In this document: positions 39,122 to 49,663 of the stretch, in pieces | How the letters are laid out: each line of letters starts with the position of its first letter | How positions within the stretch are numbered: position 1 is the first letter of the stretch | DNA from: Bacteroidales bacterium | GTDB lineage: Bacteria > Bacteroidota > Bacteroidia > Bacteroidales > UBA1402 | Direction of reading: 5' to 3' | DNA length: 64,000 bases | NCBI GenBank assembly: GCA_017468435.1 | Contig: JAFUIP010000011.1 | Coordinates: forward strand, 124,001-188,000 | Position numbers and translations under genes: made by a program | Notes under the pieces: model-generated | Seen by the model: only the letters and a program-made list of their open reading frames with translations | What the model was told of the DNA's origin: nothing | Database searches by the model: none

Positions 39122-41062
39122 TCACTTGGCGCCCGGTGCGGCATCATTGCCTTGATTTTCTGCCTGAACCGATGAGTTTTGCAAAACTTGTCGTTCTATT
39201 TTTACCGCATCCTCCGGTAGGCATTCTTTGCGAAGCATATCGATGATGGGCGATGCAAGACCTTGCATTGTAATTTCCTCAGGACCAATAATATCCATCA
39301 CTACAATTTCGTTTTTTCCCTTCTTCAACCAAACAGCGGGACAATAGAGCGTCTGCTGCGGACCCACCTTCCAGAATCTTCCCAAGCAATGTCCGTTTAC
39401 CCAGACAAAACCTTTTCCCCAAGTGGAAAGGTCCAAGAAGCTGTCTCCCCTCTTTTTTAACTTGAATTCTGCCTTGTAATAGCCCGGCTTTTTCCCTACG
39501 ATCTTGTTCCATTCGACTGGATATGTACGCGCATCTATCAAGTATATCTCCCAGTCTTTCAGTAAGATAACTTCTTCCGCACTTTTAATCAGTTCTACTT
39601 TTTCCGTGATGCCTTTGTGGTCGTGAATCTGGCGGGAATAATTGATGCGTCCCATAGCTTCTACAAAAATGCGCAAGGTATCTCCTTGATTCACAGCAGG
39701 CATTCTCAGCGTATGCTGCTCTTTTAGTCCGCGATAGAGTTCGCCTATCAGTTTGTCGTTCACGAAAATACGTGCAAAATCATGTGGCTCCGTGATACGC
39801 AAATATCCACCTTCTGGGCAAGCCGGCAAAGCACAGGCATAAAGTGCTGAACCATAACCGAAATCCATTTCTTCGAAACTTTGCACTTGCTCGGAAGTTA
39901 TCACCCGACAAACATTACTTTCCAAAGGAGCATAGCCGCTAAAGTCAATGTTATTCAGCTTAATAATGGGTTTGGCCAGGGGAATCTCTGGCAATGGCTT
40001 ATCGGAATATTCCTGTAACAAAGCTCTGAGTTTGTGATATTTGTCTGTTGCAGCACCTTGTTCGTTGATGGGAGCGTCGTAATCGTAGGAGGTACAATCG
40101 GGCGAGAAATGTGTGTTGTTGGCGCCGGCCCAATGCGCAAAAGAGGTGCCGCCGTGTGTCATGTAGAGCGAGAAAGAAATGCCGTTTTCAAGCATGGTGC
40201 CAATGCCTTTTACCATAGCATCGGCCGAGCGTGTTTCGTGCTTGCGTCCCCATCCGTCGAACCAGCCGCTCCAATATTCGGAACACATCAGCGGTGCATC
40301 GGGTCGTATGGTGCGCAGGGTTTTGAATTGAGACAAGGGCTTGGCATTGGTGCCGAAATTCAGCGTCCAGATAAGATCGTCGAGGGCATTGTTTTGGAAA
40401 TTGCTCGACCAATCGCATTGAAACATGGCGGTGCCTTCCCATCCGGCTGCTCGCAAGCTGTCGCGCATGGCGCTCATGTAGGCTTTGTCTGTGCCATACG
40501 AGCCAAATTCGTTTTCCACCTGCACCATCAGAATATTGCCTCCATTTTTCAGCATGAATGGCTGTAGTTCCTTGGCCAATCGTCTTTGAAAACGCCCCAC
40601 GGCTTGCATGAAATTCTTATTCAGAGAGCGAAGTTCCATGTTCTCCTTTTTCAATAGCCACCAAGGCAATCCGCCCATTTCCCATTCGGCGCAAACATAG
40701 GGTCCGGGACGCACAATCACCCACATATCGTGTTTTTGGCAAAGTTTCAGAAAACGAGACAATTCTCTTTCGCCTTCAAAATTAAAAACACCTTCTTCCT
40801 CTTCGTGGTAATTCCAAAAGACATAAATACATATCGTATTCATTCCAAGCGCCTTGCACATTTGTATGCGATGTTCCCAATACTCTGCCGGAATGCGCGC
40901 GTAATGAATTTCAGCCGCCTTGATAAGAAATGGCTCTCCATCCAAGAGAAAATGTCCCTTGCCGGCTTCGAAGGTATGTACTTTGCTTTTACTTGCCGCC
41001 GAAAGTTCGGTGCTAATAGAAATACTGAAAATCAGAGATATAATAATTATCAATCGTTTCAT
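39122..41062 (-). CDS. Secreted GH35 beta-galactosidase
   Basis: 646 residues from ATG at 41062; the frame extends 8 codons upstream into the promoter. Signal peptide MKRLIIIISLIFSISIST. GH35 TIM barrel: catalytic acid E185 in VENEFGSYG and nucleophile E262 in CSEYWSGW, with WNYHEEEEGVF and GPYVCAEWEMGGLPWWL. Two beta-sandwich domains follow, with jelly-roll motifs (KGFVWVNGHCLGRFWKVGPQ). It removes terminal beta-galactose from glycans, in the periplasm or at the surface. It is not adjacent to a SusC/SusD pair. Confidence 0.93.
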   Translation of the reverse strand: MKRLIIIISLIFSISISTELSAASKSKVHTFEAGKGHFLLDGEPFLIKAAEIHYARIPAEYWEHRIQMCKALGMNTICIYVFWNYHEEEEGVFNFEGERELSRFLKLCQKHDMWVIVRPGPYVCAEWEMGGLPWWLLKKENMELRSLNKNFMQAVGRFQRRLAKELQPFMLKNGGNILMVQVENEFGSYGTDKAYMSAMRDSLRAAGWEGTAMFQCDWSSNFQNNALDDLIWTLNFGTNAKPLSQFKTLRTIRPDAPLMCSEYWSGWFDGWGRKHETRSADAMVKGIGTMLENGISFSLYMTHGGTSFAHWAGANNTHFSPDCTSYDYDAPINEQGAATDKYHKLRALLQEYSDKPLPEIPLAKPIIKLNNIDFSGYAPLESNVCRVITSEQVQSFEEMDFGYGSALYACALPACPEGGYLRITEPHDFARIFVNDKLIGELYRGLKEQHTLRMPAVNQGDTLRIFVEAMGRINYSRQIHDHKGITEKVELIKSAEEVILLKDWEIYLIDARTYPVEWNKIVGKKPGYYKAEFKLKKRGDSFLDLSTWGKGFVWVNGHCLGRFWKVGPQQTLYCPAVWLKKGKNEIVVMDIIGPEEITMQGLASPIIDMLRKECLPEDAVKIERQVLQNSSVQAENQGNDAAPGAK

Positions 41063-41083
41063 TTCGTTCTTTGTTGTTTCAGA

Positions 41084-41091
41084 CAAAGATA
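41084..41091 (-). promoter_or_regulatory. -7 promoter element for the GH35 gene
   Basis: Minus-strand TATCTTTG matches TAnnTTTG, 21 bases before the chosen start. Confidence 0.6.
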
Positions 41092-41155: not shown

Positions 41156-42166
41156 ATGAAAAAGAACCTATCTATCCTTTTGGCTTGCTTTCTTTTAACA
41201 GGAAACCTCGCCCTTGCACAAGACGCTACCATGTCTAGTGATTTTGCACAATCGTCGGACACCAAGGCTCAGCGCCTCTCATTTTTCAATCATCTCGATG
41301 TGGCTGTAGAAGCCGGTAGCACCGGTATAGGTTTTGATGTAGCTACCAATCTTGGCAACAGTCTTCGTCTGCGCGCCGGATTCTCAGCCATGCCGGAATT
41401 TACTTTAGGTATGAACTTTGGCGTGGATGTCGATGAACAATTGGGTCGCACGGCCGAGGAAGGCACAGGCGAAAGCACTTTCGACAAACTCTCCAACATG
41501 ATCGAAGGAATGACCGGCACCAAGGTGAGTCAGAATATTGAAATGCTCTGTAAACCAAACTTCTACAACTTCAAACTTTTGCTCGATATCCATCCTTTCC
41601 AGAACAAGAAATGGTATTTCAGCCCGGGTGTTTTCATTGGTTCTGCCAAGATTGGACATGCGTATAATGCGCCGGAATCCATGCCCACGCTGTACGCGGC
41701 CAATATGTATAACACCATGTACAACAACGCCATGAATGATGAACCTATTATCGTGATGGGCTCTTTCGAATTGTACCCCACTGAGAAACTGATTGAAGAA
41801 ATGTTTTCTTACGGAGAACTCGGATTCAAGGTGGGTAACAGAATCTCGGATGGCTCTGCCTATAAGATGATGCCTAACGAATATTGCATGGTCAGTGCCG
41901 ACATGAAGGTAAATGCCGTAAAACCTTATCTTGGTTTTGGTTACGGTGGCAATGCCCTGGCATCTTCCAACAAGAAATTAAAATTTTCATTCGATTGCGG
42001 TCTGCTTTTCTGGGGTGGCGTTCCCAGCCTTGTTACTCACGATGGCACCGATTTGGTGCACGATGTCACCGGCATTGAAGGCAAAATGGGTCAATGCGTC
42101 GATCTGGTAAAGTGTCTCAAAGTCTTCCCAGTCATCAACCTCCGCTTAACGAGAACGATTTTTTAA
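41156..42166 (+). CDS. Secreted/outer-membrane beta-rich protein
   Basis: 336 residues with a signal peptide (MKKNLSILLACFLLTGNLAL, then AQD). The mature part starts FFNHLDVAVEAGSTGIGFDV, which resembles the first strands of small outer-membrane barrels, and ends LKVFPVINLRLTRTIF with the terminal Phe of such proteins. No known family name recognised. It is followed by a terminator, stands as a single gene and has its own promoter element. Confidence 0.7.
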   Translation: MKKNLSILLACFLLTGNLALAQDATMSSDFAQSSDTKAQRLSFFNHLDVAVEAGSTGIGFDVATNLGNSLRLRAGFSAMPEFTLGMNFGVDVDEQLGRTAEEGTGESTFDKLSNMIEGMTGTKVSQNIEMLCKPNFYNFKLLLDIHPFQNKKWYFSPGVFIGSAKIGHAYNAPESMPTLYAANMYNTMYNNAMNDEPIIVMGSFELYPTEKLIEEMFSYGELGFKVGNRISDGSAYKMMPNEYCMVSADMKVNAVKPYLGFGYGGNALASSNKKLKFSFDCGLLFWGGVPSLVTHDGTDLVHDVTGIEGKMGQCVDLVKCLKVFPVINLRLTRTIF

Positions 42167-42270: not shown

Positions 42271-44421
42271 TTATCTGGCGATTTTCTTCACCAATTTCTG
42301 TCCGTTGATGATGTAAAGACCTTCGGGCAAACGATCGAAATCTTCTTCGCAAGTGCCCACCTTGACACCCTGCAGTGTGTAAATGGCAGTAATGCCGGTA
42401 TTCATTTCCACGACTTCCAAAGCATCGGGCTTTGCCTTGACAATGATTTTGCAGGTAGCTGTGCAATTGCCAGACTGTGCTGTAATGATGGCTTCGCCGG
42501 CCTTCAAAGTGGTGACTATTCCATCTACAACGGTGGCGATGCGCTCGTCCGAACTGCTCCAGACAATGCTTTTATCTGTCGCATTATCAGGCGTAACGGT
42601 AGCCACCAACCTTAGCGATTCGCCTTCTGTCAGTTCCACTTCGGTCTTATCGAGCGTGATACCGCCAACAGGAATGACTTTCGCTTTGACAATGATCTTG
42701 CAAGTGGCCATAAATTCGCCGGCCTTGGCTGTAATCACGGCTTCGCCCACCTTCAGGCAAGAAACAGCACCATTCACAACGCTAGCGACACTTTCGTCAG
42801 AACTGCTCCAAGTGATGGTTTTGTCGGTAGCATCAGCAGGCGTGATAGTGGCCACCAGTGTTACCGATTCGCCCTCGGTCAGTTCTACTTCGGTTTTGTC
42901 GAGCGTGATGCCGTTAACGGGAACATCGGGTGTGTCGGGCTGATCCTGGCTTTGTTTTGCTTTTACGATGAAGGTACATGTGGCCGTGTGTTCACTGGCT
43001 TTGGCACTAACGACAACTTCTCCGGCTTTCCATGTGCTGACAAGTCCTTCTGACACCGTTGCAATGCTGTTGTCAGAGCTGCTCCAAGTAATGGTTTTAT
43101 CCGTGGCATTGTCGGGAGAAACGCTGGCTACCAATTGGAAAGTTTCGCCTTCAGTCAGTTCTACGCTGCTTTTATTAAGCGTAATGCCGCTCACGGGAAT
43201 CACTTTTGCTTTTACCGTAATCGTGCAATTTGCCGAAAAATCGCCCGCCTTGGCCGTAATGACTGCTGTTCCTGCCTTCAAAGTGCTAACCAAACCATTG
43301 GAAACGCTTGCGATACTGTTATCGGAGCTGCTCCAGGTAATGGTTTTATCCGTGGCATTGTCGGGAGAAACGCTTGCTTCCAACTGGAAAGTTTCGCCTT
43401 CGGTCAGTTCTATAGCACTCTTGTTGAGCTTAATGCCGCTCACGGGAATCACTTTATTGGCTTCGTATTCTTCGGGAGAAACCACCTTGATTTCATCGGG
43501 AGAACCTGCAGGCACTTTCAAATAAGCCTTGTTGGCCGGCAAATAATCGAGAGAAACTTTCTTGAAAACCAGTTCACCGGCTGCGTTCAGGCCTAGCACG
43601 CGCATGGTATTGGCATCGTAGGCAGTCAGGTTCCTGTGAGCTTTGGTTCTATTGCAGAAATACACACCTCCCAAAAGATTATCCTTAGGCGCAGTCGTAC
43701 TCTTATCGACGATATCGAGCTTGTTGGTGGCGGGATTGTTGGTGGCACACTTAATCAGCATGGGCGTTGCACTGGGAAGCACTTCCCCGCTGAATTCCTT
43801 ATACACTGCCATTCCTTGATCTACCTTATATATATAGTAGGCCTTCATGCCTGCAGAATACATGCTAAAAGGGAAAGAAGCGTAAAAAGAAGCATAGTAG
43901 CCATCTTTCGTCTGGAATTCGGGTGTGATGCCAAAATAATTATCAGCATCTGCCTTCACCGGATGCACATACCAATCTCGGTAAGTGCCTTTGGCATTGG
44001 TACCGAGCACGCCATCCACCACTGAACTCATTTCTACATCTCCTAAGTACATTTTCAAATAATCATTGCTTTGAAAAGCCTTGTAGGTGTTGCCGTCTTT
44101 GTTGAGAGAAACCTTCAGATAGTAGCCGATAATTTCGTAGGTGTCAGTACCTTGTGCGTAAAATTTAAAACCCGCACTGGTTTCGTGAACGTACAGAATA
44201 GAACTAGGATCCGATACTACATTGCTGAAGTTTTTGTATAGTTCCACTGCCCCCAAATCGGCAGAAGTAGATGCAATATCGATACTTCCCCTATTGTCTC
44301 TCACGGTGATATATCTTTCCGAACCAACATTCTGGATACGATAATAACCATTACCCTCCAACTTTGCTGACAGGGGAAGAATACATATAGAAAGCAATAA
44401 GGCAATAAGTAGTTTTTTCAT
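42271..44421 (-). CDS. Surface protein with four BIG2 Ig-like repeats
   Basis: 716 residues from ATG at 44421 (signal peptide MKKLLIALLLSICILPLSA); the frame extends 7 codons upstream. N-terminal 320 residues form an unnamed beta-rich region (KLEGNGYYRIQNVGSERYIT). Four BIG2 domains (about 324-664) start VIPVSG, VIPVSG, VPVNG and VIPVGG. The C-terminal 45 residues (TGITAIYTLQGVKVG, LPEGLYIINGQKLVKK) resemble a type A sorting domain of the type IX secretion system. Likely an exported adhesin or glycan-binding protein; function is not known. Confidence 0.85.
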   Translation of the reverse strand: MKKLLIALLLSICILPLSAKLEGNGYYRIQNVGSERYITVRDNRGSIDIASTSADLGAVELYKNFSNVVSDPSSILYVHETSAGFKFYAQGTDTYEIIGYYLKVSLNKDGNTYKAFQSNDYLKMYLGDVEMSSVVDGVLGTNAKGTYRDWYVHPVKADADNYFGITPEFQTKDGYYASFYASFPFSMYSAGMKAYYIYKVDQGMAVYKEFSGEVLPSATPMLIKCATNNPATNKLDIVDKSTTAPKDNLLGGVYFCNRTKAHRNLTAYDANTMRVLGLNAAGELVFKKVSLDYLPANKAYLKVPAGSPDEIKVVSPEEYEANKVIPVSGIKLNKSAIELTEGETFQLEASVSPDNATDKTITWSSSDNSIASVSNGLVSTLKAGTAVITAKAGDFSANCTITVKAKVIPVSGITLNKSSVELTEGETFQLVASVSPDNATDKTITWSSSDNSIATVSEGLVSTWKAGEVVVSAKASEHTATCTFIVKAKQSQDQPDTPDVPVNGITLDKTEVELTEGESVTLVATITPADATDKTITWSSSDESVASVVNGAVSCLKVGEAVITAKAGEFMATCKIIVKAKVIPVGGITLDKTEVELTEGESLRLVATVTPDNATDKSIVWSSSDERIATVVDGIVTTLKAGEAIITAQSGNCTATCKIIVKAKPDALEVVEMNTGITAIYTLQGVKVGTCEEDFDRLPEGLYIINGQKLVKKIAR
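42430..43452 (-). repeat. Tandem BIG2-domain repeat, four units
   Basis: Unit boundaries: 43204-43452 (249 bp), 42925-43203 (279 bp, with a linker QSQDQPDTPD), 42679-42924 (246 bp), 42430-42678 (249 bp). Units 1 and 2 share a 35-base stretch around 43090-43125 and 43340-43375 that is identical at the DNA level, which suggests recent duplication or conversion. Confidence 0.85.
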
Positions 44422-44435
44422 ATAAAGAAAATTAT

Positions 44436-44470
44436 CCAACAACCACCAGGATAAACCTGATGATTGTTGG
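44436..44470 (-). terminator. Hairpin between the OmpA-like and BIG2 genes
   Basis: A 15-bp stem (44436-44450 with 44456-44470, two G-T pairs) has a 5-base loop. It lies just after the OmpA-like stop codon in the direction of transcription and before the BIG2 start, so it may cut or reduce read-through. Confidence 0.6.
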
Positions 44471-44493
44471 ATGATAAGATGTTTACGTCAAGA

Positions 44494-45684
44494 TTATTTC
44501 TGAACAATGCAGATAGCAACACGGTTTTCAGCAGGCGTTCCGTAAGGCTGTACGCTTGCTCCCTTGAAATCGATGGTCATGCGAGATTCGGCAATACCTT
44601 CTTCTTTCAAAGCCTTGGCAACAGCATTGGCACGAAGTTCAGATTTGTGCATGTTTACTCTGTCGGTACCGGTGGCGTTGTCGGCATAACCGGTGATGAG
44701 TACAACTGTAGTAGGATTCTGCTTCATGTAATTGGCAATTTCACTTACCTTGCCCATTTCTGACTTGGTAATCTTGGCACTACCAATGCCGAAAACAATG
44801 TCGCGTTGGAAAGGTTGAGCAGCTTCTCTTTCGGCAGCTGCAACAGCTTCAGCAATCACTTTGTCTTGTGCAGCCTTGGTTTCTTCCAAGTCTTTTTCCA
44901 AAGCATTTACCTTTTCTTCCATAGGAGCGACTTTCTTGTCAACATATTCCTGAACGATTTCTTCTACAGACTTGGTAGGTTCAACAGCGCGATGTTCGTG
45001 AGTCTTGCCGAAGCAATACTTAACACCGGCCAATGCGTTGAAATACCAGTCACTGTTGCCGGCTTGTTTTGAATTATATTTGTCAGAAAGAGTCACAGCC
45101 TGCACTTCGATACCGGCGCTCAGGTTGTCAGTGATGCGGAAATCACCGGCCAAACCAACATGACCATTCAAGAAGGCCTTGGTGCCATCCCACAAATATT
45201 CGAGAGCATCGTCGGGAAAGTTTCCGGTCTGACTAAGAGAAGCTTTCAAATCGTCGTTTGCAGTAGCGGCTTTATCGTTAGCAAAAGTAACATTAAGGCC
45301 CAAACCTGCGATAGCGCTCAATGAAAACAAACGATCGGGATTGTAACCGCAGATAGCGTTAGTAATATTGAATGTTCCATCCAAAGAAGGAGCAACATAA
45401 TTCCAAGCCCAACGAGCATCATCCTGACCAGCCTTGCTTTGCCATGCATTGATACCGAAACGAGCACCAAGCAATTCGCTAAATTGACGACCAAAGGTCA
45501 ATTGAGCATTAGGAGCAACCAATTTGCCGAATGATACTTCACCCAAAGTATATTGAGCACCAAACTGTCCTTGTACATACCAATGAGGTACAAAAACATT
45601 TTCAGTCTTTTCTGCCTCTTGTGCGCTCAAGCCGAATAAAGCTACAGCAGCGAGACACGACAATATAAATTTCTTTACTTTCAT
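44494..45684 (-). CDS. OmpA-family outer-membrane protein
   Basis: 396 residues. Signal peptide (MKVKKFILSCLAAVALFGLS, AQE). N-terminal barrel (about 35-235) begins FVPHWYVQGQFGAQYTLGE. A coiled-coil segment (VEEIVQEYVDKKVAPMEEKV to IAEAVAAAERE, about 245-300) precedes a C-terminal peptidoglycan-binding OmpA domain: TTVVLITGYADNATGTD, VNMHKSELRANAVAKAL and NRVAICIVQK. It anchors the outer membrane to peptidoglycan. It lies 36 bases downstream of the giant coiled-coil lipoprotein gene, so both are likely one transcript. Confidence 0.93.
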   Translation of the reverse strand: MKVKKFILSCLAAVALFGLSAQEAEKTENVFVPHWYVQGQFGAQYTLGEVSFGKLVAPNAQLTFGRQFSELLGARFGINAWQSKAGQDDARWAWNYVAPSLDGTFNITNAICGYNPDRLFSLSAIAGLGLNVTFANDKAATANDDLKASLSQTGNFPDDALEYLWDGTKAFLNGHVGLAGDFRITDNLSAGIEVQAVTLSDKYNSKQAGNSDWYFNALAGVKYCFGKTHEHRAVEPTKSVEEIVQEYVDKKVAPMEEKVNALEKDLEETKAAQDKVIAEAVAAAEREAAQPFQRDIVFGIGSAKITKSEMGKVSEIANYMKQNPTTVVLITGYADNATGTDRVNMHKSELRANAVAKALKEEGIAESRMTIDFKGASVQPYGTPAENRVAICIVQK

Positions 45685-45720
45685 AGTTTTTCTAATTTAA
45701 ATGTTTATCCCTCAATGTGT

Positions 45721-48282
45721 TTATTTTACCTGAATATAATACTTGGTATTGCTGATATAACCAGAGAAGTCAACAGCAGAATAAGTGATTTCGTAGGTAT
45801 AACCAGACTGACCATTGAAGTTGATAGCGCGGGTCTGACCATCCAATACGGTGTTCAAATCGCCGGTGTTAGCAGCTCTGGCAACGCTTTCAACGCTATT
45901 TCCATGGCTATCGAAAGCAGCCGTTACAGCCACAAACTTCTTCATGGCAGGTGCCAAGATTTCACCGGTGTAGCTGGTGGGAACCAAAACAGCAGAAGCA
46001 GCATTAATCTGGCTAGGAGCAGCCTTGATAGAACTCAACTGAGCAAAACCATCGGTAGTGCTAACCAACATAGTGGGTTGCAATTTGCTGTTGATAGAGT
46101 TAAGCAGACTGCAAAGCTTGTTGTTGATCTTGTCGAGGTATTCATTCAATTTGTTTTCAACCTTTACGAGAACATCATTTACCTTATTTTCTACATCTTC
46201 AATCTTGCCGTTAAAGCTAGACAACATATCATTTACGTCGTCCAAAATGCTGTCGAGGTCATCGAGGGTGCCACCCAATTGACCAAGAACATCTTCAGAA
46301 GGAATTGAAATGGTTGTATTAATATTAACAGGAATATCGATATCCTTAACAATAGCAACTTTGCCGTTTACAATGTCACTCTTCTTGATTTCAACTTTTT
46401 GAGCAGGAACAACTACTTCACCCACCTGGATAGAACCATCATATACAGGCACCGTAATAGGAGTTGTCCAAACTTCTGTTACATCAGCAATGGGAACATC
46501 AACTTCTTCATTCAAATGATAGGTAATAACATCATGATATTCAAAGTTGAATGAAATAGTATCTTCAATAATACCTGCCAAGTTGATAGCTTGCAATTTC
46601 AGAGAAAGATCGTTCAAGCCCAAGTCAGGAATACTGATGGTACCAATTCGGTCGAACACTTTGTTTATCAAACTGCTTACGCGACCAATGCCGGGGAATG
46701 ATTCAACATTAAGATCGGCCAAAGAGTTGTAAGAAAGAGGCTTAACAGCCACAGCGGCTACACCATAATCTGAATATACACTGTGTTTGCCCAATGAATC
46801 AGTATAGATAGCTTCTACTGCATAAGCATCAGCGATATCGTTTACGGCATTGTACAGAGTCGTGATAGCATTGCTCAAGTTTACACCGTCACCGATAGAT
46901 TTGAAATCAGCCAAAACATTTTTCAAGTCTTCTACTTCAACGCGGATTTGAGCCTTGTCGATATTGGCAGGATCCAAAGTAGCAGATACTTCGTAGAAAC
47001 CATTGTTAGCTGCACGGGTGTAACCGAAGTTGAGTTTCTTTTCAGACTTAACCAGCGGGCCGAGAACAACGGCAGATTCTTCACCAAGACTGTTCTTCAA
47101 ACCAAGCTTAATACCGGTGGTGTCAACATCGTTGGGGTTGATGGTGAGATACAAAGTACCGGCATTGCCTTCAGTACCAACAAGAACGTCATTCTTGTAA
47201 CCGAAAGAAGTTTCGGTAAAACCAAGGAATGCGGCTTCAGCATCGGTAAACGCAGCAGAAGGATCCACATAGTTGGAAGTGCGAACGGTCGGGAACTTCA
47301 ATTCGTTGGCGGGGCTTGAAATAACATTGTAATAAGCAGCCAAGATGTTAGATCTCATACCGGTAGGCAAGTTGAAATAACCAACAACGGGGCTGTAAGC
47401 ACCATTCACAACTACACTTGAGATACGCTTGTTCAAACGGTTTTCAACGATATTCATTCGCTTTTCGAGATCGGTCAAAGCATCGCGGATTTCAGAAACA
47501 GCTGTCTGCAAATCTTTGATATCTTGCTTGAGCAATTCGTCGGCATCTTGGAGATCCTTGATTTGAGAAGAGTGAGTGGCAAGTGTGGCGGTAGCAGCAA
47601 CCACGGCAGCATCAAGAATGCCAACCTGAGTCTGCAAGCTCTTGATTTTGCTTTCGTTTTCTCTAATCTTATTCCAAATAGCAGCCGTGTCGCAATTGCA
47701 AGACTTAATCTTGGCCAATTCTTCTTTCAACCACTTGATTTCAGAAGCATTGGTAGCAACAGCAACAGCAACCTTACCTACAGAGTCGAGAGCTGCAGCA
47801 TACTTGGTGTTGATTTCCGTTCTGAGAACCGTTGCTACACTATCCAACGCCTTGTCAACATAAGCAATGGTAGCATAAGTCTTAAAGATGTATTCGATGG
47901 TGTCAGCATGGATTTTCTGAATGCTATCCAAAGCATGCAATGTGCTATCAACCTTGATCTTCGCATCTTCCAATACTTCGATGCGACCATCCAATTCAGC
48001 TACATCTTGCAAAAGAGCCACAATACTATCAGAGTTTTCCTTGTCGGCTTTTTCCAACTCAATGTGCTTGGCGGCACAATTGTCTTTACATTCGTTAATT
48101 GCATTTTCCAATGCGGTCTGCAAATCGGCGAGATCTGCGCTCATATCCGCATTCAAATCAGCAATCTGGCCCTTCAATTCTGCATTGACATCGGCAACGT
48201 AGTCGTTACAAGAAGAGAAGAACATGCCCACAGCACATATCACTGATACGGACATGATCAATTTTCCAAATTTTTTCTTCAT
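45721..48282 (-). CDS. Large coiled-coil surface lipoprotein
   Basis: 853 residues from ATG at 48282 (MKKKFGKLIMSVSVICAVGM). Lipobox FSSC puts the lipidated cysteine at C25, followed by NDYVADVNAELKG. Residues 35-300 are mostly heptad-like coiled coil with two Cys pairs (INECKDNC, IKSCNCD). A beta-rich domain occupies about 305-660. A second coiled coil (about 665-745, LDDLDSILDDVNDMLSSFNG to KINNKLCSLLNSINSKL) precedes a C-terminal beta-sandwich ending NTKYYIQVK. Probably a stalked surface or periplasmic lipoprotein paired with the OmpA-like protein. No family recognised. Confidence 0.82.
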   Translation of the reverse strand: MKKKFGKLIMSVSVICAVGMFFSSCNDYVADVNAELKGQIADLNADMSADLADLQTALENAINECKDNCAAKHIELEKADKENSDSIVALLQDVAELDGRIEVLEDAKIKVDSTLHALDSIQKIHADTIEYIFKTYATIAYVDKALDSVATVLRTEINTKYAAALDSVGKVAVAVATNASEIKWLKEELAKIKSCNCDTAAIWNKIRENESKIKSLQTQVGILDAAVVAATATLATHSSQIKDLQDADELLKQDIKDLQTAVSEIRDALTDLEKRMNIVENRLNKRISSVVVNGAYSPVVGYFNLPTGMRSNILAAYYNVISSPANELKFPTVRTSNYVDPSAAFTDAEAAFLGFTETSFGYKNDVLVGTEGNAGTLYLTINPNDVDTTGIKLGLKNSLGEESAVVLGPLVKSEKKLNFGYTRAANNGFYEVSATLDPANIDKAQIRVEVEDLKNVLADFKSIGDGVNLSNAITTLYNAVNDIADAYAVEAIYTDSLGKHSVYSDYGVAAVAVKPLSYNSLADLNVESFPGIGRVSSLINKVFDRIGTISIPDLGLNDLSLKLQAINLAGIIEDTISFNFEYHDVITYHLNEEVDVPIADVTEVWTTPITVPVYDGSIQVGEVVVPAQKVEIKKSDIVNGKVAIVKDIDIPVNINTTISIPSEDVLGQLGGTLDDLDSILDDVNDMLSSFNGKIEDVENKVNDVLVKVENKLNEYLDKINNKLCSLLNSINSKLQPTMLVSTTDGFAQLSSIKAAPSQINAASAVLVPTSYTGEILAPAMKKFVAVTAAFDSHGNSVESVARAANTGDLNTVLDGQTRAINFNGQSGYTYEITYSAVDFSGYISNTKYYIQVK

Positions 48283-48386: not shown

Positions 48387-48394
48387 CAAAATTA
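48387..48394 (-). promoter_or_regulatory. -7 promoter element for the lipoprotein-OmpA pair
   Basis: Minus-strand TAATTTTG matches TAnnTTTG, 104 bases before the lipoprotein ATG, so the leader would be long (about 100 bases) and AT rich, as for abundant outer-membrane proteins. The intergenic stretch holds no other gene. Confidence 0.5.
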
Positions 48395-48504
48395 CTTATT
48401 AATATCTTTTCTGCAACGATTGTGGCGCTATTTTATTAAAAAAAATTGGTACATTTTGATACACTTTATTTTGGGGCAGCTAATTAAGAATCAATCTCTT
48501 TGTA

Positions 48505-48512: not shown

Positions 48513-48547
48513 CATCCATAAAACAAATTCGAAACAAAGTGACAAGA

Positions 48548-49663
48548 ATGAAAACAAATATGACACGCAGAAGCTTATTGGCCATTGGCTTTATTGTGGC
48601 AAGAAGTCTCTTTCTCGATGCACAAATGCCAGCACAAGAAAACATTGCACAAGGCATGAAAGATGCTTACAAAGATTATTTCATGGTGGGAGTGGCTGTC
48701 AATCAACGAAATATATCTGTGCCGGAGCAGCAGGCATTATTGCTTCAAGAGTTCAACAGCATCACGGCCGAGAACGACATGAAACCCGGCCCCACCGAGC
48801 CTCAAGAAGGCGTTTATCGCTGGGAAAAGGCCGATGCCATCGCCAATTTTTGCCGGGAAAACGGACTGAAAATGCGCGGACATTGTCTTATGTGGCACAA
48901 TCAGACCTGCCGCTGGATGTACGAAGATAATCCCGATAAAGAAGTCTTTTTAGCCCGGATGCGCAGTCATATCCACGCCGTGGTGAGCAGATATAAAGAT
49001 GTGGTGTATTGCTGGGATGTTGTCAATGAGGCACTTACCGACGACGCCATGGCAGAAGATCCGTATCGCCAATCTCCCATGTACAAGATTGCCGGCGAAG
49101 ATTTCATCTTTAAGGCTTTCGAATATGCCCGCGAGGCCGATCCCGATGCCCTGCTCTTCTACAACGACTACAACGAATGCGACCCTGTCAAATCGCAACG
49201 CATGGCAGATATGGTGAAAAGAATGAAAAAAGCGGGCGTTCCCATCGATGGAATCGGTATGCAAGGCCATTACAACATCTATAGTCCTACGGAAAAAGAA
49301 TTGGAGCAAGCCATCCGGAAATTTCGCAAAGTGGTGGATCATATCCACGTCACCGAGCTGGACATTCGCGTGAACAAGGACATGGGCGGGAACTTGCGTT
49401 TCAGTCGAGAAGGCATGGAAATCAGCGATTCCACCGAACAATTCCTGGCCGACCAATACGCCCGCGTTTTCCACGTTTTCCGCAAATATCACAAAGTTAT
49501 TGATTGCGTCACTTTCTGGAACCTGAGCGACAAAGATTCATGGTTGGGCGTTCGCAATTATGCCACGCCCTTCGACGCTGATTATCAGCCCAAGAGAGCC
49601 TACGAATATATAGTCGAAAAGAAGGCTCCGCTTTGGCCGCAACCTGAAAAATCTGATAAATGA
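48548..49663 (+). CDS. GH10 endo-1,4-beta-xylanase
   Basis: 371 residues from ATG at 48548; the frame is open further upstream, past the promoter. Weak signal peptide (LLAIGFIVARSLFLDA). GH10 barrel complete: acid/base E161 in WDVVNEAL and nucleophile E270 in HVTELDIR, with FNSITAENDMKPG, RGHCLMWHNQ and FYNDYNE. Hydrolyses internal xylan bonds. It is a single-domain enzyme with no binding module and no adjacent SusC/SusD genes. Its stop is 7 bases before the convergent gene. Confidence 0.93.
   Translation: MKTNMTRRSLLAIGFIVARSLFLDAQMPAQENIAQGMKDAYKDYFMVGVAVNQRNISVPEQQALLLQEFNSITAENDMKPGPTEPQEGVYRWEKADAIANFCRENGLKMRGHCLMWHNQTCRWMYEDNPDKEVFLARMRSHIHAVVSRYKDVVYCWDVVNEALTDDAMAEDPYRQSPMYKIAGEDFIFKAFEYAREADPDALLFYNDYNECDPVKSQRMADMVKRMKKAGVPIDGIGMQGHYNIYSPTEKELEQAIRKFRKVVDHIHVTELDIRVNKDMGGNLRFSREGMEISDSTEQFLADQYARVFHVFRKYHKVIDCVTFWNLSDKDSWLGVRNYATPFDADYQPKRAYEYIVEKKAPLWPQPEKSDK

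Follow-up and report, generated by a model that had tools for sequence, protein, structure and literature searches.

The window, a stretch of 64,000 nucleotides from a Bacteroidales genome assembly (1.84 Mb, 70% complete), carries on its minus strand a gene for a large lipoprotein followed by a gene for an OmpA-family protein, each with one match within its own genome. Two further linked genes lie beyond this pair, and the features of the cassette are as follows.

41156-42166, plus strand: linked gene 4, encoding a 336-aa outer-membrane beta-barrel with a CarO-like fold.
42271-44421, minus strand: linked gene 3, encoding a 716-aa secreted protein with a conserved N-terminal domain and four Big_2 repeats.
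44434-44472, minus strand: terminator-like hairpin after the OmpA gene, with a 17-bp stem and a T-rich tail.
44494-45684, minus strand: OmpA-family gene, encoding 396 aa with a signal peptide, a putative barrel-like domain at the N-terminus, a linker and an OmpA domain (residues 298-378).
45721-48282, minus strand: lipoprotein gene, encoding 853 aa with a lipobox (C25), a stalk (residues 28-284) and a head (residues 285-853).
45724-47430, minus strand: head region of the lipoprotein gene, divergent and mosaic across species; the last 120 residues weakly resemble an FN3/Ig-type sandwich.
47431-48202, minus strand: coiled-coil stalk (residues 28-284), with cysteine pairs C65/C69 and C195/C197 and an SCNCDTAA joint to the head.
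48387-48416, minus strand: promoter-like element of the Bacteroidota type, TTG-N19-TAATTTTG, followed by a leader of ~100 nt.

A sequence-only reading of the same DNA had placed both open reading frames at 44494-48282 with 36 bases between them; both are present on the minus strand, the lipoprotein gene lying upstream, and the gap measured 36 bp. The same reading had described an 853-residue lipoprotein with its lipidation site at C25, and the 853-aa product does begin with a signal peptide and lipobox (MKKKFGKLIMSVSVICAVGMFFSSC25). The cysteine that follows the signal peptide stands in the context FSSC25 in the window and is conserved as xSC in 8/8 sequences. Hydrophobic periodicity near 3.5 is significant over approximately residues 15-294 and 645-770 and absent in between, although positions past 320 come from a gapped row of the alignment and are off by up to 17. 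The predicted architecture of a long coiled coil with two cysteine pairs, a beta-rich middle and a second coil was recovered, with the second coil lying inside the head at about residues 660-755.

No named family had been recognised for the lipoprotein, and searches of Pfam, NCBIfam and PHROGs were in line with this, returning only generic coiled-coil matches that fell below curated cutoffs where such cutoffs exist. A PDB sequence search with the lipoprotein gave nothing useful, and no YadA-type or other anchor domain was found among all the Pfam matches that the head gave with E no higher than 0.1. The AF2 model of the head had a pLDDT of 60, which is low confidence; Foldseek and VIA-align matched it to Ig/FN3-type folds with Z no higher than 7.7, and this assignment was set aside as one that may reflect merely a common arrangement.

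Homologues of the lipoprotein were sought with a two-sequence profile first and with head-only profiles next. The closest locus belongs to a congener (G001; 72% identity for the lipoprotein, 90% for the OmpA protein), whose cassette matches the one in RGIG371, a Bacteroidales MAG from cattle colon (L034/L035), and the two were counted as one genome. Confident homologues were also detected in G242, G382 and G402 of one genus, in G122, G410 and G415 of another, and in G385; with the window and the congener, the profile searches gave nine carrier genomes in four Bacteroidales families. In other genomes, the head profile also gave short, unconfirmed hits of 19-24 bits, mainly over its coiled-coil part; these were excluded from the counts. 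Among 395 genomes of the phylum, those outside the order gave no full-length match, and inside genera the lipoprotein is patchy (2/6, 3/9 and 3/15 genomes, many of the MAGs being incomplete). At all eight loci that are not cut short by a contig end, an OmpA-family gene lies 36-82 bp downstream of the lipoprotein gene; when adjacency was examined in other Bacteroidota, the pair thus proved to be conserved and co-occurring in the four families.

Assignment of the second gene as OmpA-like was upheld by a match of 54.8 bits to PF00691 (cutoff 27.2) and by PDB matches to OmpA/Pal-type domains. The N-terminal part of the protein scored 13.6 against OMP_b-brl in the window and 19.6 in a homologue, the cutoff being 28.7. 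One earlier claim did not survive the family alignment: a coiled-coil linker in the OmpA protein had been taken as a feature common to the pair, but the homologues carry short, unrelated linkers.

Specificity of the partnership is apparent from the distribution of the OmpA subfamily. Among 29 genomes in four genera, subfamily members scoring above 430 bits were present in 8/9 lipoprotein carriers, the ninth having its locus cut short by a contig end, and in 0/20 close relatives that lack the lipoprotein, where the best OmpA scores were below 200 bits. Random assignment would produce this pattern with a chance of ~2e-6, by a hand calculation that ignores relatedness. Across 324 genomes of the order, every score above 590 bits came from a genome with the lipoprotein. 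Four further genomes of the order scored 330-353 bits, and in two of these (G322 and G300) a large lipoprotein with the lipobox CKDYDDD is encoded just upstream; lower-scoring OmpA relatives elsewhere had no such lipoprotein beside them, among the matches listed and examined.

The two CKDYDDD lipoproteins (L115:4393-7641 and L116:8316-11291) resemble the window family in having a lipobox, a large size, a related OmpA gene downstream and, in one of the two, a long coiled-coil stalk; the other has almost no coiled coil. At L115, one small lipoprotein gene is situated between the CKDYDDD lipoprotein gene and the OmpA gene. Homology of the window head to the CKDYDDD heads was not detected (hhalign probability below 1%), and an NP-x-x-(V/I) motif constitutes a suggestive likeness. 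The occurrence of these lipoproteins together with related OmpA proteins suggests a wider modular class.

Upstream of the lipoprotein gene, the element at 48387-48416 is probably the promoter of the two-gene unit. It fits TTG/TAATTTTG, which we take to be the Bacteroidota promoter consensus, and the congener keeps TTGCAG and TTTGCACCCTAAT while the flanks diverge; the last ~47 nt of the leader are identical. One promoter with a long leader, as proposed earlier, is thus plausible. After the OmpA gene, a strong hairpin is found in 8/8 loci, with differing sequences, and no terminator was detected in the lipoprotein-OmpA gap at the loci examined; the region contained no Rfam families. Because the hairpin follows OmpA, the gap lacks a terminator and the promoter-like element and leader are kept, the unit is most likely bicistronic, which accords with the co-expression anticipated for the pair. 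At three loci of one genus (L059:9490-9567, L074:7922-8000 and L082:4079-4160), the gap contains a conserved short hairpin, TCAAGTGGGACTnGTTCCCACTTGA, that has no T-run and is possibly an element for mRNA processing or stoichiometry.

The architecture of the stalk is exchanged between homologues. In G122 and G410 (loci L060 and L083), most of the coil gives way to collagen-like G-X-Y repeats that score 56 and 40 bits against PF01391 (cutoff 27.2) and are broken up by modules of ~33 residues, while the lipobox, the SC[NGK]CDTAA joint, a short coil and the homologous head are all retained. Because collagen folds as a triple helix, the simplest arrangement compatible with both stalk types is a parallel homotrimer, and the stalk is most likely homotrimeric; the stalk-like structure proposed for the window gains from this exchange the implication of a trimer. 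Counting against the trimer, the window lipoprotein has no G-X-Y repeats and its coiled coil may be dimeric. All eight stalks examined contain a CxC or CxxxC motif, and we infer that this motif is a candidate interchain lock. The repeated modules that interrupt the stalks at L060:6254-9298 and L083:6918-9252 (SAFDLWKES...DLDNDGDIDEADMLLWMKG) give a weak EF-hand match and are possibly calcium-binding spacers. The G402 copy (L082:2330-2480) has an in-frame stop exactly at the stalk/head border, with the remaining head open downstream; the gene may be broken, the assembly may be wrong at this point, or the head may be translated separately.

Stalk and head also differ in how fast they diverge. 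Between the window and its congener, dS is 0.21 for the stalk and 0.98 for the head, compared with 0.6-1.7 for flanking genes, and DNA identity falls from ~90% to 41% at a sharp edge near 47340 and fluctuates along the head. Expression level is ruled out as the cause of the dS contrast because the difference sits within one gene. The pattern is mosaic and can be explained either by recombination affecting the stalk region or by a special constraint on that region; selection on the stalk sequence could be part of the signal. Divergence of the head fits surface exposure.

The published lipoprotein export signal (LES) consists of CS(D/E)2, K-(D/E)2 or Q-A-(D/E)2 after the cysteine (PMC6222051). 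The window sequence, CNDYVAD, is acidic and matches in part, and the homologues (CKDYEEDD, CKDYNED, CKDTDED and CKDYESDD) are likewise acidic and do not reproduce the exact motif. Because CNDYVAD is only a partial signal, outward orientation is putative.

The two linked genes had been missed by the earlier reading of the pair. Gene 3 encodes a constant N-terminal domain to which a varying set of Ig-like repeats is attached (four Big_2 repeats in the window, none in G385 and G415); its homologues (L059, L060, L074, L075, L082, L084 and the window) range from 383 to 1,214 aa, apparently by repeat number. Of three homologues scanned, only that of G385 passed the cutoff for a type IX sorting tail, and the gene 3 product is possibly type IX cargo. 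A weak match to ricin-type lectins was found in a gene 3 homologue. The gene 4 model matches the CarO barrel with an E of 1e-9, and the gene aligns in 7/7 loci where it is visible; in G385 it lies on the opposite side of the lipoprotein gene, showing that gene 4 is linked but its order is not fixed. A GH35 beta-galactosidase-like gene (39122-41086) and a GH10 xylanase-like gene (48545-49663) flank the cassette in the window and in the congener, and not in the other families.

The reading that we favour, with a probability of roughly 0.57, is that the two genes specify a trimeric fibre with a lipid anchor, which the OmpA partner ties to peptidoglycan. The fibre would work in the manner of AtaA/TpgA but belong to a different family. 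According to this model, the lipoprotein would be lipidated at C25 and transported to the outer membrane, where three copies would join in parallel through the stalk, by a coiled coil in the window protein and by a collagen triple helix in certain relatives. The trimer would probably be locked covalently at the conserved CxC or CxxxC motif, and the variable head would be held tens of nanometres off the membrane. Translated from the same mRNA, the OmpA partner would insert in the outer membrane, bind peptidoglycan and so fasten the fibre complex to the wall. The fibre would probably serve for attachment to a neighbouring cell, a glycan or a host surface, and recombination would diversify the heads above a common stalk.

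The main rival to this model, which we consider unlikely, has the lipoprotein facing inward as a periplasmic spacer that, together with the OmpA protein, bridges the outer membrane and peptidoglycan in the manner of SlpA/OmpM. Such a spacer would account for the peptidoglycan-binding domain of the partner and for a lipoprotein export signal that is merely partial, and the long trimeric coiled coils of SlpA do bridge the periplasm (PMC9388160). However, divergence is much faster in the head than in the stalk, as expected of a surface tip and not of a buried spacer. Moreover, the ~257-residue stalk would measure ~38 nm by hand estimate, longer than the SlpA stalk (28 nm), and space would also be needed for a head of 570 residues; the patchy presence of the lipoprotein inside genera also argues against a spacer.

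A looser arrangement, in which a surface lipoprotein is co-expressed with an OmpA-type stabiliser of general function and the two are not physically coupled, is similarly doubtful: OmpA proteins are common in these genomes, but the pair draws on a single subfamily, which among the 29 relatives is confined to those with the lipoprotein, and different families retain the two-gene unit and its terminator-like hairpin. The linked genes raise the alternative of a surface complex for nutrient or glycan capture, with the products of genes 3 and 4 serving as binding protein and channel. The CarO-barrel-like fold of gene 4, the lectin match in the gene 3 homologue and the GH10 and GH35 genes beside the window cassette would all suit this role; nevertheless, the cassette contains no SusC/SusD pair and the GH neighbours are missing from the loci of other families, and we regard a capture complex as improbable.

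A broader form of this reading is more tentative, and we place it a little short of even odds. Here, the fibres would represent a previously unnamed modular class of lipid-anchored trimeric surface structures in Bacteroidales. Every fibre would have an OmpA wall anchor of its own, commonly accompanied by a barrel and a protein with Ig repeats; recombination would exchange the stalks (coiled coil or collagen) and the heads, leaving the anchor operon constant.

Work on trimeric fibre adhesins has mostly concerned proteobacterial type V autotransporters, and we found no account in the literature of a Bacteroidales surface lipoprotein that combines a coiled coil with an OmpA operon. A relation to the Bacteroidota BAM complex was considered and discarded, the paper on that complex mentioning neither OmpA nor coiled coils. 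If the model is correct, large unnamed surface lipoproteins in host-associated MAGs would acquire testable names and partners, and the family would show coiled coil and collagen naturally interchanged at the same position, together with exchange of heads between species.

Several known systems share parts of this design. The collagen-stalk homologues recall in outline the trimeric collagen-stalk adhesins Lcl of Legionella and Scl of streptococci; Lcl is a lollipop-shaped trimer with a coiled coil at the N-terminus, followed by a collagen stalk and a head at the C-terminus (PMC11162425). A collagen-stalk homologue nonetheless scored far below the cutoffs of the Lcl and Scl family models, and the window lipoprotein differs from both in lacking collagen, in having a head unmatched by their models, and in its lipid anchor and OmpA partner. 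Deinococcus SlpA and OmpM similarly combine a long trimeric coiled coil with a peptidoglycan-binding function, but they do so in one chain with an SLH domain and a large barrel, whereas the window system uses two genes, an OmpA domain and a lipid anchor; neither an SLH domain nor a barrel was found among the Pfam matches to the head or among the best 25 whole-protein matches. The likeness to AtaA/TpgA consists in a fibre gene and an OmpA-domain gene placed in one operon and is a resemblance of function only. TpgA is an OmpA-domain protein that is co-transcribed with the trimeric fibre AtaA in Acinetobacter, binds peptidoglycan and is needed for display of the fibre (PMC5861075). As a type V autotransporter, AtaA is anchored through a barrel at its C-terminus, whereas the window fibre would be anchored by an N-terminal lipid and end in a C-terminal head, with no YadA-type anchor found. 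If the model holds, a lipoprotein fibre with a dedicated OmpA partner would be the gut Bacteroidales equivalent of the trimeric adhesins.
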